Positions 3,741-12,244 of a stretch of DNA of 64,000 nucleotides are shown here, piece after piece (positions within the stretch are counted from its first letter, which is position 1; every line of letters starts with the position of its first letter). Under the pieces are notes generated by a model that made no database searches, was not told where the DNA came from, and was given only the letters and a program-made list of their open reading frames with translations. The stretch is taken from positions 62,001 to 126,000 of the forward strand of contig NZ_FZMZ01000006.1 of assembly GCF_900187325.1 (NCBI RefSeq), in the 5' to 3' direction. Made by a program: the position numbers and the translations under genes. Source of the stretch: Virgibacillus ndiopensis (GTDB lineage Bacteria > Bacillota > Bacilli > Bacillales > Amphibacillaceae).

Positions 3741-3773
3741 AAAAAATACGCACCTCTTTTAGAAGAGATACGC
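3741..3773 (-). terminator. Terminator of the cell-wall module
   Basis: Minus-strand hairpin GCGTATCTCTT / AAGAGGTGCG (two G-T pairs) with a CTAA loop, then a T-run (3741-3746), directly after the small gene ending at 3776. Confidence 0.75.
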
Positions 3774-3775
3774 TT

Positions 3776-3979
3776 TTAAACTAGATGAATCGTAACATCA
3801 TACCACTTTTTCTCATCTACTGATTGGTTTGATGTACTTTCTTTGATAGTAGCTTTCGGGTACTTCTTTCTTACCAATTCGATTTCATTACTAGATAAGC
3901 GAAGTTCTCGGTGATGAATGTCATCGTTAAAAGACTCTGTTAGGAACTCATCAAAGTAATCACGTTGTTTTAACTTCAC
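3776..3979 (-). CDS. Small protein of unknown function
   Basis: 67 aa from a GTG at 3977-3979. GGGAG lies 8 nt upstream of this GTG, whereas the ATG at 3983-3985 is only 2 nt from it, so the GTG is preferred; a longer in-frame version would start at 3997. The product is hydrophilic, with no signal peptide or membrane segment. I recognise no family. It is the last gene before a strong terminator and follows the racemase by 72 nt on the same strand, so it is probably co-transcribed with the racemase/MurE-like/ATP-grasp genes. Any role in that pathway is a guess. Confidence 0.6.
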   Translation of the reverse strand: MKLKQRDYFDEFLTESFNDDIHHRELRLSSNEIELVRKKYPKATIKESTSNQSVDEKKWYDVTIHLV

Positions 3980-4051
3980 TACCATTACTCCCTTCACTTA
4001 TTATCAGCAAAATCTTTTTTAAGTATATGCACAAGTATTAATTTCATACCT

Positions 4052-4762
4052 TTACCTATCTTTTAAAGTACCACCAGACAATTTTATTGATCGTTGAACA
4101 AGTACTTCCATTGCATCAACACTGTATTTTTTAATATCTTTACGTAAAGTGATAGTAGAGAGTTCTGTACAGGCTAGAATTACACAATCACATTTTTCAT
4201 TAAAAATTAGATCTTCAATGATCGCTTCAAAGGCGTCAGCTCTCAGGTCAATTCCGCTTTTAATACCATAAATAATGTCCATGACCTTTTTTTGTATGGT
4301 ATCATTTGGTGTGTACATTTCCATATTATATTTATTGCACTCACTGTGATAAATACCACTTTCAATCGTACCTTTCGTTGCTAAAAGACCTATTTTGCTA
4401 TTTTCGCCGTATTTTCTAGCTATCTCTTTTATCGTTTCTCCTACCATATTAATAATGTTAATGTCAGTAGACTGTTGCATTTCATGATAGAAATAGTGGG
4501 AGGTATTACAAGGAATAGCAATATTCGCTACACCTATATTTTCAAGTGTTTGAATATCTTTCTTAATAGGTTTAAGGAACGTATCACCAGTGTTATTCAA
4601 AATAACGTCCGTCCGATCTGGTAATGTTGCATGATTAAGAATGACCATATTAATATGATCCTGGTCTGAGTCTGCAACTGTATTTTCAATGACTTGTTCA
4701 AAAAATACGGAAGTGGCCATGGGACCCATTCCACCTAAAACACCAAGACTTTTTTTCTCCAT
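4052..4762 (-). CDS. Aspartate/glutamate racemase family protein
   Basis: 236 aa, the usual length for the Asp/Glu racemase superfamily. The cofactor-independent two-base mechanism needs two cysteines, and both are present: C85 in IPCNTSH and C198 in ILACTELS. The N-terminus GVLGGMGPMAT is typical of the aspartate racemase/YgeA branch rather than MurI. It likely interconverts L- and D-Asp or Glu in the cytoplasm. It starts 41 nt after the stop of the MurE paralogue, so the two genes form an operon. The context suggests it supplies the D-amino acid used by the upstream ATP-grasp ligase; substrate choice (Asp or Glu) is inferred. Confidence 0.85.
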   Translation of the reverse strand: MEKKSLGVLGGMGPMATSVFFEQVIENTVADSDQDHINMVILNHATLPDRTDVILNNTGDTFLKPIKKDIQTLENIGVANIAIPCNTSHYFYHEMQQSTDINIINMVGETIKEIARKYGENSKIGLLATKGTIESGIYHSECNKYNMEMYTPNDTIQKKVMDIIYGIKSGIDLRADAFEAIIEDLIFNEKCDCVILACTELSTITLRKDIKKYSVDAMEVLVQRSIKLSGGTLKDR

Positions 4763-4803
4763 TTTTTAACCTACTTTACATAACGTATAGTCTTCTATCT
4801 TTA

Positions 4804-6294
4804 TTACCTTGCCCGTTCCCGTGTCTTGGCACGGTGTTTCATAAAAGTTGTAACGATCTCTGTTTCATTAAAAGGAATTTCCTCTTTACCAATTAATTGA
4901 GCTGTTTCATGACCTTTTCCTGCTATGAGGATGGTATCGCCCTTTTCACTCATATCAATCGCAAATTTAATTGCCTCTTCACGGTCCAAAACCTTATAAT
5001 AAGCAGACGTTTCTTCATCAATTGATTCACTAATTTCATCGATAATCAAATTAGGATCATATTCCTTAGGGTTGTCCGAGGTTACGACAGAAAAATCTGC
5101 GTATTTAGCTGCTACTTTTCCCATCGAACGTCGTTTGCTCAAGCCCCGTTTATCACCAGGCGCATAAACGCCAAACACCAGAATAATTTTTCCTGTTGTA
5201 TAAGGTCTTAATGTTGTTAATGCCTTTTCCAAGCTATCCTCTGTATGGGCAAAGTCGACAACAATCCTGTAGTCATCTTCTTTGTAAATAACTTCAAGTC
5301 GTCCTTTAATTCCTTCCACATTGCTGATACCTGCTTGAATATCTTTAACCTCAATCCCAGCGCAATACGCACAAGCAATTGCTGCCAAACTATTGTAAAC
5401 ATAAATCTTTCCAGGCAGATTTACTTTCACGTCAAAATTACCCTTAGGGGTCTGAACAGTAAAAGTCGTATGCTCAAATGAATAATGTATATCTGTTGCA
5501 TAAATTTCAGCTTTTGTATCGATTCCATACGTAATTAATTCCGTATCATACTCTTCGATACGTTTAATAAGCTTCTGACCGTATTCATCATCCACGTTTA
5601 CAATATTATATTCACTTGTAAGGTCAAATAGCATTGCTTTCGCATTAAAATATTCATCCATCGTATTGTGCAGCTCTAAATGATCCGGTGTAAGGTTTGT
5701 AAAAATCCCCATATTAAAGCTACTATGGGCAACGCGTTTGAGACTCAATGCATGTGAGGACACTTCCATAATACAATTGTCACTTTTTGCTTCAACCATA
5801 TCAGCAAAAATCTTTTGTAAATCCAGCGATTCAGGTGTCGTGTTTTTATTTTTTGTTACGTTATTGTTGATTACCGTACCAATCGTCCCAATTAGACCAA
5901 TTGATTTTTTAGCCTGTTCAAAAATGGATTTGATAAAATATGTTGTTGATGTTTTCCCATTTGTTCCAGTGATACCAATCAAATTGAAATGTTCAGTTGG
6001 GCGATGGTAAAAATTGGATCCAATAAGTGCCATCGCATCTCTCGTATCAGACACTTTTAGAACCGTGATGTCAGCAGCAATCTGTATATCTTTTTCCACA
6101 ACGATTACAGTTGAGCCATTTTGAATTGCCTTTGTAATAAAATCGTGTCCATCAACGACAAAGCCGGAAATTGCCACGAAAAGGGAATTTTCCTTAGCTT
6201 CTCTGGAATCATAGGCAATGGATTCAACGCTAACGTCCATATTTCCTTTTACAATAGTAAAATCGAGATCTTTTACTACAGACTCTAACAGCAT
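4804..6294 (-). CDS. MurE-like UDP-N-acetylmuramyl-tripeptide synthetase (divergent paralogue)
   Basis: 496 aa from ATG 6292-6294, which has GGAGGT 7 nt upstream; a TTG 15 nt earlier contains that RBS and is rejected. The domain order is that of Mur ligases: N-terminal UDP-binding domain, P-loop GTNGKT (110-115), TTPES, the carbamylated-lysine segment KAMLF, and the C-terminal amino-acid-binding domain. MurE adds the third residue to UDP-MurNAc-L-Ala-D-Glu. The substrate motif reads DNPK (407-410), not the DNPR of DAP-adding enzymes. FAHTEDSLEKAL and VFGVYAPGDKRGL also differ from the usual YAHTPDGLEK and VFGCGGDRD. It lies outside any dcw cluster, in tandem with a racemase. L-Lys or L-Orn as substrate is plausible but unproven. 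Confidence 0.85.
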   Translation of the reverse strand: MLLESVVKDLDFTIVKGNMDVSVESIAYDSREAKENSLFVAISGFVVDGHDFITKAIQNGSTVIVVEKDIQIAADITVLKVSDTRDAMALIGSNFYHRPTEHFNLIGITGTNGKTSTTYFIKSIFEQAKKSIGLIGTIGTVINNNVTKNKNTTPESLDLQKIFADMVEAKSDNCIMEVSSHALSLKRVAHSSFNMGIFTNLTPDHLELHNTMDEYFNAKAMLFDLTSEYNIVNVDDEYGQKLIKRIEEYDTELITYGIDTKAEIYATDIHYSFEHTTFTVQTPKGNFDVKVNLPGKIYVYNSLAAIACAYCAGIEVKDIQAGISNVEGIKGRLEVIYKEDDYRIVVDFAHTEDSLEKALTTLRPYTTGKIILVFGVYAPGDKRGLSKRRSMGKVAAKYADFSVVTSDNPKEYDPNLIIDEISESIDEETSAYYKVLDREEAIKFAIDMSEKGDTILIAGKGHETAQLIGKEEIPFNETEIVTTFMKHRAKTRERAR

Positions 6295-6347
6295 ATTACT
6301 TACCTCCAACGTTACTAACTAAGATAACTACTTTATATTCGAACCGC

Positions 6348-6460
6348 AGCCAGAATACACTCCGCTTTCCACGGGTGACCCGTGAGCCTCCTCGTTCGTA
6401 CCACACTGCGGGGTCTCACATTAGTCACTGTCCCCGTAGGAGTCTTCGTGTATTCTGGCT
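6348..6460. repeat. Intergenic hairpin element, single unit (family A)
   Basis: 113 bp bounded by a perfect 13-bp inverted repeat AGCCAGAATACAC / GTGTATTCTGGCT. The interior carries the family core blocks GAGCCTCCTCG, GGGGTCTCA and AGGAGTC. It lies between the ATP-grasp gene and the MurE paralogue and would be transcribed with them. Confidence 0.8.
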
Positions 6461-6522
6461 ACTCAGATTTTTTAAGTATATTTCCGTCCTATTCCAAATG
6501 AAAAAACTATTATCAAAACAGT

Positions 6523-7710
6523 CTATTTCTTAAAAACTTTCTTAGCTACTTTCCCTATCAGCATGGAAGAATAATTTATCCCTGGTTTTGGGTCTTTCCA
6601 ATCCCAAATTGCATATGCCTTTGGTCTAAAGTATGTCTTCACTATATCTTTTACCGATAATTGACCAGTTTTCACATAGTCTTTAACTGCCAGCATATCT
6701 TCATAGCCATACCAGAAAGCACGGTTGGTTGTTGTTGTAATGGCCTTAGGCTCAACAGGGTTTCCTGTTAGTTCACGATACGTGATATAGGGAATATTTA
6801 AGCCAAGCGTGTAAATTAAATGATTAAAATTCGTAATCCGTACGTTTACCTCGATTAAATAATAGTTTCCCGTATCTTCATCTTTCTTAAACTCAATTTC
6901 AGCAAATCCTTTATATCCCGTTGCTTCTAAAAACTTCGAGCCAATTTCATATAACTCTGGAATATACTTTTGAACCGTATAAACAGATGCACCAAAATTG
7001 ATTGGATACTGACGAAACTTTTGACAGGTCAGCCAGTGGGTCACTTTTGAATCCTGATTTAAATAAGCATCAAACGTATACATGTGATCGTCAAACCCAG
7101 GGATAATCCGTTGTACAATTACTTCTAATCCCGCTTCTTTTACTTTAGCTAAAACTTCATTCAGCTCATCAAAATTGTATACCTTAAAAAGTTTTCGTCT
7201 AAATTTAGCCACAAATGTCGGTGAGTCTACCGGTTTCACAATACAAGGAAATTTGATAATTGTTTCAACCTTTTCCTCAAAATTATCCTCGTCAACACCT
7301 ACTGTCTCCGGTACCGCCATGCCTAGCTCCTGGGCAAAATGACGCAGGTTACCTTTATTCATTAATTTTGTATAAAGACCTGCCTCTGTTTGTGGAATTA
7401 GATAATGCTCTTTAAACTCGTCAAAATACGCATCAATTACTTCCACATAGGAATCATGACAAGGAATAAGCACCGGCTTCGCGTCCTGCATTTTTGCGTA
7501 ATCTATTAAAAAGTCAACAAATGCTCTCGTGTCTTCCTTATAATGAGGAGATATTACTCTCTCTGAAAGATATTTCGATTTCGCACCGTATGTATCTTCA
7601 TCAGAATAATCTACCGCTACTGTGTGTACCCCTTCTGTACCTAGACAGCGTATCGCACTTAAACCTATATAATAATTCGTTCCTAGAATTACTGCTTTAT
7701 TTTTCATCAT
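6523..7710 (-). CDS. ATP-grasp carboxylate-amine ligase, D-aspartate-ligase-like
   Basis: 395 aa. An N-terminal pre-ATP-grasp domain (VILGTNYYIGLSAIRCLG) is followed by an ATP-grasp fold with VQRIIPGFDDHMYTFDAYL and metal-binding residues in GFAEIEF and YLIEVNVR. Layout and motifs resemble the enterococcal D-aspartate ligase Asl (IPGDDSNM.. and FEINLR at matching places), which joins D-Asp to the epsilon-amine of L-Lys in UDP-MurNAc-pentapeptide. GAGGAG precedes two adjacent ATGs (7710 and 7707). It is upstream of a MurE paralogue and a racemase on the same strand. The alternatives are a D-Glu ligase or an unrelated ATP-grasp amide ligase. Confidence 0.75.
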   Translation of the reverse strand: MMKNKAVILGTNYYIGLSAIRCLGTEGVHTVAVDYSDEDTYGAKSKYLSERVISPHYKEDTRAFVDFLIDYAKMQDAKPVLIPCHDSYVEVIDAYFDEFKEHYLIPQTEAGLYTKLMNKGNLRHFAQELGMAVPETVGVDEDNFEEKVETIIKFPCIVKPVDSPTFVAKFRRKLFKVYNFDELNEVLAKVKEAGLEVIVQRIIPGFDDHMYTFDAYLNQDSKVTHWLTCQKFRQYPINFGASVYTVQKYIPELYEIGSKFLEATGYKGFAEIEFKKDEDTGNYYLIEVNVRITNFNHLIYTLGLNIPYITYRELTGNPVEPKAITTTTNRAFWYGYEDMLAVKDYVKTGQLSVKDIVKTYFRPKAYAIWDWKDPKPGINYSSMLIGKVAKKVFKK

Positions 7711-7852
7711 TCCAGCTCCTCAATCACACAAGATGAGTACTTGTCATTAATTGTATTTCTATCTAAAATTGCAAAAATCCACCTTAGGCAGTGGATAGTA
7801 AAGTTATTTCAACTAATTCGGTGATAGTGTAAGATTTAACTACCTTCATTAT

Positions 7853-7881
7853 ATTATAAAACATAGGAATATTATTGTACA
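7853..7881 (-). promoter_or_regulatory. Possible promoter of the ATP-grasp/murE-like/racemase unit
   Basis: Minus-strand TGTACA (7876-7881) and TATAAT (7853-7858) with a 17-bp spacer: perfect -10, weak -35. It implies a leader of about 140 nt with no riboswitch I recognise. Confidence 0.4.
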
Positions 7882-10680: not shown

Positions 10681-10885
10681 GCTAGACTTGAATTTACAAG
10701 CTTAGTCAATAATCCAATTAGATTATTATCTAGTTTGAAAAAGCCTAACAAATTTCATTATACAGAAAGCCGCCACACTTGAAAAGTGACAATACTTCTA
10801 TTTTTTCTCCCATAGATTAGACCTATTTTTTATGATAAAATTAAAAACATATGTCGAATCTTGAATTATGATTGGAGGGGGAGTT

Positions 10886-11533
10886 ATGGCGGAGGTTCCG
10901 TTCATTGCAATAGAAGGGCCAATTGGCATAGGAAAAACATCACTTGCAAAGAAACTTTCTGTCCACTTTGACTTTCATTTATTAAAGGAAATCGTTGAAG
11001 AAAATCCGTTTTTGGGAAAATTTTACGATGATATTGATGAGTGGAGTTTTCAAACGGAAATGTTCTTTTTGTGCAATCGTTTTAAACAATTAGAGGATAT
11101 CGAGAAAAAATACTTAAATAAATATAAAGCGGTCGTAGCCGATTATCATATATCGAAAAACACGCTTTTTGCGAAACGCACATTACAGGAAGATAAGTTC
11201 GAAAAGTACGAGCAAATTTACCATATATTAACAAAGGATATGCCTGTTCCAAATATGATGATTTACTTACATGCGAGTCTTGATACCATTTTGAAAAGAA
11301 TTCGTATGCGCGGCAGGGATATTGAACAAAATATAAAATCATCTTACCTTGCACAGCTAGCGCAGGACTATGAAGATTATATGAATGAATTTGAAGTCTT
11401 ACATCCAGATATACCAGTTATTCGAATTAATGGTGATGAAACTGACTTTGTGAAACAACAAGGCGATTTAAACAAGATTGTTGAACAAGTTGAGTTTCAT
11501 CTTAACGGAAATGCAGAGGTTGCTAAACGATAA
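10886..11533 (+). CDS. dgk: Deoxyguanosine kinase
   Basis: 215 aa from ATG 10886, which has GGAGGGGG 4 nt upstream; the in-frame ATG at 10868 has no RBS. It is a cytoplasmic deoxynucleoside kinase with P-loop GPIGIGKT, catalytic ExxxxNPF, the DYHISKN segment (DRS equivalent) and the RxRxRGR-type lid RIRMRGRDIE. It phosphorylates purine deoxynucleosides in salvage. It is paired with dck, whose start lies 27 nt after its stop, as in the Bacillus dck-dgk pair. The dgk/dck split rests on similarity to the B. subtilis proteins and could be swapped in fine specificity. Confidence 0.9.
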   Translation: MAEVPFIAIEGPIGIGKTSLAKKLSVHFDFHLLKEIVEENPFLGKFYDDIDEWSFQTEMFFLCNRFKQLEDIEKKYLNKYKAVVADYHISKNTLFAKRTLQEDKFEKYEQIYHILTKDMPVPNMMIYLHASLDTILKRIRMRGRDIEQNIKSSYLAQLAQDYEDYMNEFEVLHPDIPVIRINGDETDFVKQQGDLNKIVEQVEFHLNGNAEVAKR

Positions 11534-11560
11534 CACATGTTACAAAGGGGAACGAAAATA

Positions 11561-12244
11561 ATGAATCTAAGAGAAAAGTATTCTATTCCGAATGATAGCA
11601 TTATTACGATTGCTGGTACTGTTGGGGTAGGGAAATCAACGATGACGAAGGCGCTAGCAAATGCCTTAAAATTTAAAACTTCCTTTGAGAAGGTAGATAC
11701 AAATCCATACTTAGAAAATTTTTATTCTGATTTTGAGCGGTGGAGCTTCCATTTACAAATTTATTTCCTAGCTGAGCGTTTTAAGGAACAAAAGAAAATC
11801 TTTGAATATGGCGGTGGATTTATACAGGACCGCTCAATTTATGAAGATACCGGAATCTTTGCCAAAATGCATTACGAAAATGGCACAATGTCCAGAATTG
11901 ACTATGAAACATATACGAATTTATTTGAAGCGATGGTCATGACGCCATATTTTCCACATCCAGATTTGCTTATTTACTTGGAAGGAACACTGGATGAAAT
12001 CTTAGAACGAATCCAAGCACGTGGACGGGAAATGGAAAAAAGTACGCCAATTGCGTATTGGGAAGAAATGTACACACGCTATGAAAATTGGATTAACAAT
12101 TTTAATGCATGCCCTATTTTACGAATTAATATTTCTGATTATGATTTAATGAAAAAAGAAGATTCTATTGAGCCTATCTTAGAAAAAATTGGCCATTTTA
12201 TCCAGCAGTCACGGAGATGGAAATCAAGAGAACTAGTTAAATAA
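11561..12244 (+). CDS. dck: Deoxyadenosine/deoxycytidine kinase
   Basis: 227 aa from ATG 11561; an earlier ATG (11537) lies before the AAAGGGGA ribosome site. P-loop GTVGVGKST, ExxxxNPYLENFY, the catalytic QDRSIYED (DRS) and lid RIQARGREME are all present, so the enzyme is complete. It salvages dA and dC to their monophosphates. It is co-transcribed with dgk and ends in a strong terminator. The neighbourhood (serS - tRNA-Ser - dck - dgk) matches Bacillus, apart from the 10 kb of amino-acid metabolism genes placed between. Confidence 0.92.
   Translation: MNLREKYSIPNDSIITIAGTVGVGKSTMTKALANALKFKTSFEKVDTNPYLENFYSDFERWSFHLQIYFLAERFKEQKKIFEYGGGFIQDRSIYEDTGIFAKMHYENGTMSRIDYETYTNLFEAMVMTPYFPHPDLLIYLEGTLDEILERIQARGREMEKSTPIAYWEEMYTRYENWINNFNACPILRINISDYDLMKKEDSIEPILEKIGHFIQQSRRWKSRELVK

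Follow-up and report, generated by a model that had tools for sequence, protein, structure and literature searches.

A MurE paralogue, an ATP-grasp ligase and an aspartate-type racemase in one gene set of Virgibacillus ndiopensis: a probable module for a cell-wall precursor with a D-aspartate side chain

The analysed stretch of the Virgibacillus ndiopensis genome (64,000 nucleotides of contig NZ_FZMZ01000006.1, here called the window) contains on its minus strand a set of four genes, coding in the order of transcription for an ATP-grasp ligase, a paralogue of the peptidoglycan ligase MurE, an Asp/Glu-type racemase and a small conserved protein (Table 1). We consider it probable that they form a self-contained module building an alternative precursor with a D-aspartate side chain on the diamino acid of the wall. 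A first-pass annotation had described three same-strand genes ending in one terminator; its coordinates and gene calls for the open reading frames (ORFs) were right. The argument for the terminator is its position, not its score, because three terminator-like sites were found in the region and 2.3 were expected by chance. A consensus scan yielded 18 sigma-A-type sites against an expectation of 19.4, thus the candidate promoter upstream of the ligase gene is only suggestive. The MurE gene most likely starts at the ATG behind GGAGGT rather than at the TTG of the mechanical ORF call, and among the possible starts of the small gene the GTG at 3979 is the one with the best-spaced AGGGAG. One correction to the earlier description concerns spacing: ligase and murE are 228 nucleotides apart (6295-6522), and the gap holds a GC-rich palindromic repeat (about 6345-6465, fold z-score -3.55) that occurs as a single copy within the window. 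In Virgibacillus oceani (L055) this gap has 39 nucleotides and no palindrome at that place, which points to a later insertion between ligase and murE in the window.

Table 1 Features of the four-gene set and its flanking signals in the window
Feature	Position	Strand	Remarks
Candidate sigma-A-type promoter	7853-7881	minus	TGTACA-17-TATAAT, upstream of the ligase gene, consensus scan
ATP-grasp ligase gene	7710-6523	minus	395-amino-acid ORF
MurE paralogue gene	6294-4804	minus	496 amino acids from ATG with GGAGGT upstream
Alternative MurE ORF start	TTG 6309	minus	501 amino acids, mechanical ORF call
Asp/Glu-type racemase gene	4762-4052	minus	236 amino acids, two cysteines
Small conserved gene	3979/3997-3776	minus	67-73 amino acids by choice of start
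Intrinsic terminator	3773-3748	minus	11-pair stem and T tail, 3' end of the four-gene set

At the sequence level the ligase matched the ATP-grasp family weakly, the specific Pfam ligase models stayed below their cut-offs, and no relative was obtained from the PDB. The AlphaFold2 model (predicted local distance difference test, pLDDT, 83) found its best PDB matches among ATP-grasp enzymes, for 2pn1 with a Z-score of 23.8 and a root-mean-square deviation of 3.9 over 295 residues; the predicted fold is clearly that of an ATP-grasp carboxylate-amine ligase. The catalytic residues K119, K159, E271, E273, E287 and N289 were invariant in an alignment of 19 relatives. With this alignment a distribution scan was performed on one genome per species; the best 80 of 160 relatives were kept, and 76 loci could be assessed. 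A MurE gene was located directly downstream of the ligase gene in 73 of the 76 loci and a racemase gene was present in 73 as well, a conserved context that supports the proposal of one unit outside the division and cell-wall (dcw) cluster. Around the relatives the same order was kept in many Bacillales and Paenibacillaceae, and also in a few Clostridia. The carriers, scores of soil-dwelling and halophilic spore-formers, were Virgibacillus oceani, Oceanobacillus, Ornithinibacillus, Paucisalibacillus, Halobacillus, Aquibacillus, Cytobacillus, Fredinandcohnia, Neobacillus, Paenibacillus, Cohnella, Chengkuizengella and the few Clostridia. Within the order the ligase is rare (17 of 299 genomes, 8 of 117 genera). 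The suggested link to Halobacillus gained in weight: the ligase was present in 22 of 22 Halobacillus and in 9 of 11 Ornithinibacillus genomes; for the latter genus A4beta peptidoglycan is reported (PMC4062624). Both genera stand apart on the ligase tree and are counted as two lineages, not as 31 independent events. In comparison to V. oceani, the ratios of nonsynonymous to synonymous substitution rates (dN/dS) were 0.017 for the ligase, 0.098 for murE, 0.074 for the racemase and 0.285 for the small gene. Purifying selection acts on the module genes; the small gene has the highest dN/dS of the four, yet below 1. The observation is not due to chance, since gene order is conserved across lineages and dN/dS is low.

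Neighbouring genes in the relatives point to the cell wall. A C39-like secreted peptidase is encoded inside some operons, and in Halobacillus (L118-L133) ftsX and a gene for a PcsB/EnvC-like M23 protein follow on the same strand directly 3' of the small gene; the M23 protein adjoins the module also in some Bacillaceae. The FtsX/EnvC-like genes were not adopted as part of the system in the window, as they adjoin the module in Halobacillus and not here. Two neighbouring ORFs of the window (10868-12244; 221 and 235 amino acids) resemble deoxynucleoside kinases. A wider search for the ligase family in 399 genomes of the class revealed distant relatives, 24-30 % identical over partial length, in racemase operons of other families (L216, L215, L211), ordered asnB-ligase-racemase, as in L216, or ligase-racemase; no MurE gene adjoined them. 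Lactic acid bacteria are described as having this arrangement (PMC4155827). Two Paenibacillus loci carry 3' of the module a second ligase, 28-29 % identical, whose neighbours are a C39-like gene and one for an asparagine synthase (L111:13728-14951, L126:13699-14937). On plasmids, the ligase retrieved distant relatives annotated as carbamoyl-phosphate synthase and one close ligase, 63 % identical, from Acetoanaerobium noterae (NZ_CP154629.1, L181); this replicon of 2.6 Mb is filed as a plasmid and is more likely a chromosome.

The MurE paralogue reached 485.3 bits with TIGR01085 (cut-off 257.3). It passed NF001126, a model for ligases of diaminopimelic acid (DAP), with 549 versus 373 bits, and this NCBI model would label it a DAP ligase; it failed PRK14022, the lysine ligase model of the Staphylococcus aureus type (NF010628; 386 versus 536 bits) and has no DNPA motif either. 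The elements of this enzyme, here called type A, are the P-loop GTNGKTS, the carbamoylated-lysine segment NAKAMLF, GKGHE, and a DNPK motif preceded immediately by a three-residue insertion. The host genome holds exactly two MurE genes. The other is the standard DAP-type copy that had been expected elsewhere, located in the dcw cluster (G000:C2:189373-190779) and 40 % identical to the window enzyme; in the alignment its DNPR stands where the window MurE has DNPK, with lysine at the fourth position. In the DNPR motif, the asparagine and the arginine make contact with the second DAP carboxylate (PMC3829189, PMC9434261). Judged by sequence, it is fair to call the window MurE not a standard DAP enzyme. 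The earlier description of its motif as non-DAP thus holds in that DNPK is not DNPR, but an exclusion of DAP is not proven, as the charge and GKGHE are kept. With housekeeping MurE enzymes, of the DAP type (DNPR) or the lysine type (DNPA in Staphylococcus aureus, DDPR in Thermotoga maritima), the paralogue shares the three Mur domains, the P-loop and the carbamoylated lysine; it differs in DNPK, the insertion and its location outside the dcw cluster beside the proposed D-amino-acid ligase. Of the 28 carrier genomes that were checked, 27 had a dcw MurE with DNPR, Halobacillus included, mostly beside a SpoVD-like protein; at least one wall probably receives its DAP from this enzyme. Bacillus kwashiorkori (L122), a candidate for a module MurE as sole MurE, was dropped: the assembly is also without a true MraY, and the gap is probably due to a contig missing from it. 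Six genomes of family f49 were examined: five had a MurE with DDPR, and four of the five also had one with DNPR.

Ligases with 64-73 % identity to that of the window adjoin either a type A MurE or a second form, type B. The type A enzymes of relatives are 50-67 % identical to the window MurE and have DNPK, rarely DNPR. Type B is about 30 % identical to the window MurE and passes TIGR01085 with 305 versus 257 bits. Its N-terminal and middle domains are bacterial, with the P-loop GITATNGKT; it has no DNPx and CQGMD in the position of GKGHE, and the solved structure nearest to its C-terminal domain is archaeal pMurE (6vr8/7ufp, query residues 307-487). Thus it resembles the archaeal enzyme in the C-terminal domain and the missing DNPx and differs from it in the other two domains. 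The pseudomurein enzyme pMurE adds lysine (PMC12996149). Such chimera-like MurE proteins (e.g., L118:9232-10776, L061:9199-10689) occur in Halobacillus, Ornithinibacillus, Cohnella and Clostridia; the genome of the window has none. On a tree of 81 ligases the MurE type switched at least four times by well-supported branches, nine times at face value. One Paucisalibacillus globulus genome, belonging to the genus Ornithinibacillus, has type A within a type B clade. In Lentibacillus sediminis (L113:10181-13170) a type B and a type A MurE follow in tandem behind ligase and racemase, and in another family of the class a type B-like MurE with CQGMD (L238, G519:C1:64738-65919) lies far from a ligase-like gene at 1.40 Mb. 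Halobacillus walls are of the L-Orn-D-Asp type. Because type B is the form of Halobacillus and of all Ornithinibacillus carriers apart from the P. globulus genome, it probably adds ornithine. That the MurE of the window takes lysine or ornithine is less firm, Halobacillus and nearly all Ornithinibacillus carrying the other MurE type. Action outside peptidoglycan, with Mur-like and ATP-grasp ligases making a peptide or polymer that is soluble or independent of the wall, is very improbable. The plasmid-borne distant relatives annotated as carbamoyl-phosphate synthase and the plain DAP walls reported for many carriers would agree with it, but both MurE types pass TIGR01085 (485 and 305 versus 257 bits), the genes co-occur densely in A4beta genera and wall genes are neighbours.

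The racemase matched PF01177 (E 1e-33) and TIGR00035 (187 versus 93 bits), and both catalytic cysteines are present, in IPCNTS and ACTEL; the assignment as a two-cysteine Asp/Glu racemase was correct. The closest solved structure is the aspartate racemase of Pyrococcus (1jfl, E 8e-42). An AsnB-like gene (TIGR01536, 551 versus 267 bits) lies near the ligase in 38 of the 76 loci and within the murE-racemase interval in 27. An asparagine synthase nearby is expected if D-aspartate is amidated, and it matches the arrangement in Lactococcus lactis, where racD lies within the aslA operon and AsnH amidates D-aspartate (PMC4155827). A dedicated Asp-type racemase would favour D-aspartate over D-glutamate in the bridge, because the stem peptide has its supply of D-glutamate in any case.

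The suspicion that a 67-amino-acid gene downstream might be a fourth part was borne out: homologues stand directly 3' of the racemase in 45 of the 76 loci, in 35 of 44 with a type B and in 10 of 29 with a type A MurE. Judged by its alignment (A2), the gene represents a real, conserved family with an invariant RELRL...E and conserved YP and K.WYEV, relatives often having a predicted coiled tail. The protein had no match to Pfam or NCBIfam families. An alpha/beta mini-fold was predicted (pLDDT 80), for which Foldseek gave no reliable PDB match, a result that says nothing on the novelty of the fold. A role as regulator or as scaffold for the ligases would be a guess.

Several observations weigh against a wall module of this kind. 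Thirty-one of the 76 loci have no small gene, and the ligases of the Lactobacillales-like asnB-ligase-racemase operons share with that of the window only 24-30 % identity over partial length. The weightiest objection comes from described wall types. Carriers in Paenibacillus, Cytobacillus and Cohnella are described as meso-DAP organisms. Oceanobacillus is described as A1gamma (PMC4062624), though O. profundus carries a type A MurE. A charge similar to that of DNPR has been ascribed to DNPK (PMC9434261), and for the MurE of S. aureus specificity is not determined by the motif alone (PMC3829189). The racemase scores just over the cut-off of the cysteate racemase (CuyB) model NF052483, with 198.8 versus 190. 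The points on MurE and on Oceanobacillus would suit a paralogue whose amino acid, too, is meso-DAP or a different diamino diacid, the ligase then placing D-aspartate on DAP; the resulting A4gamma wall would appear as plain meso-DAP in whole-cell hydrolysates. Such a use of DAP is conceivable, because the enzyme preserves GKGHE and, in DNPK, the aspartate, the asparagine and a positive charge, but we regard it as unlikely: with an intact dcw DNPR enzyme in each of the 27 carriers that yielded a dcw murE, a second DAP-adding enzyme would be superfluous, and related operons swap in a MurE without DNPx, which suggests a different amino acid. The A1gamma type of O. massiliensis was inferred from meso-DAP in a whole-cell hydrolysate, A4gamma being set aside on taxonomic grounds (PMC4062624); a hydrolysate used in this way cannot see lysine or D-aspartate bridges. 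For V. oceani, Paucisalibacillus and B. kwashiorkori the literature searched held no wall type. The cysteate racemase score, together with the Orn-D-Glu walls known in Bacillales (review PMC9781867), would agree with D-glutamate or D-cysteate, made or supplied otherwise, as bridge amino acid. This too is improbable, since an aspartate racemase is the nearest relative with a solved structure, the AsnB-like partner fits aspartate, and the operon racemases of Halobacillus reach 215 with the same model, which those of Ornithinibacillus pass as well. Because Halobacillus is a genus known for D-aspartate bridges, NF052483 seems too broad and over-calls; automatic annotation probably misnames the operon racemases as cysteate racemase.

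The module for a D-aspartate-bearing precursor therefore remains our preferred reading. From gene content, conserved order, folds, co-occurrence and selection we infer the reactions, the choice of D-aspartate over D-glutamate and of lysine or ornithine rather than DAP, and the stage at which the module is used, as follows. The racemase would convert L-aspartate to D-aspartate. The MurE paralogue would add a diamino acid, most likely L-lysine or L-ornithine, to UDP-N-acetylmuramoyl-L-Ala-D-Glu, in competition with the DAP-adding dcw MurE. The ATP-grasp ligase would activate D-aspartate as beta-aspartyl phosphate and couple it to the diamino acid at the amino group left free in the side chain, and the branch would become a D-aspartate cross-bridge of type A4. 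In many relatives the AsnB-like amidotransferase, encoded within the operon or next to it, may amidate the D-aspartate, and the small fourth protein would be a conserved accessory. As the most likely division of labour, the module would serve one growth state and the spoVD-adjoining dcw MurE another, e.g., the spore cortex. Bacillus (Lysinibacillus) sphaericus has two MurE enzymes for two diamino acids in one spore-former, and by this precedent the wall fed by the dcw MurE is plausibly the cortex; here, unlike in B. sphaericus, the MurE outside the dcw cluster is bundled with bridge ligase and racemase. The AslA/Aslfm, RacD and AsnH systems of L. lactis and Enterococcus faecium resemble the module in having an ATP-grasp ligase beside an aspartate racemase, often with an asparagine synthase, but the module in the window has its own MurE and the small conserved gene, and the ligases of comparable asnB-ligase-racemase operons in other families reach only about 27-30 % identity over partial length. 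In L. lactis the lysine of the stem is supplied by the housekeeping MurE. The A4beta genera Halobacillus and Ornithinibacillus share with the window the ligase clade and the operon order; their MurE is type B, the P. globulus genome excepted, whereas that of the window is type A.

The chemistry and each enzyme class are already known. As far as the literature searched goes, four things are new: the bundling into one operon, a MurE that is exchanged within it, a set of candidate genes for Orn-D-Asp walls, and the small protein family; no paper on wall genes of Halobacillus, or naming the L-Orn-D-Asp genes of Halobacillus or Ornithinibacillus, was found in that literature. As a bolder and still doubtful proposition, many Bacillaceae and Paenibacillaceae that are described as plain meso-DAP might hold all the genes of a second, D-aspartate-bridged wall as a mobile kit, in which MurE is swapped between two unrelated designs of substrate recognition, one of them like archaeal pMurE, so that the third residue changes while ligase and racemase stay, and which is used in a growth state that routine typing misses. 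Peptidoglycan type has long served taxonomy as a classic character, and sensitivity to lysins, lysozyme and antibiotics depends on it. If the reading is true, the operon would name the L-Orn-D-Asp wall genes of Halobacillus and Ornithinibacillus, D-aspartate bridges would be predicted in organisms filed as meso-DAP, and the naturally occurring MurE exchanges would form a series from which the specificity for the third residue could be worked out.

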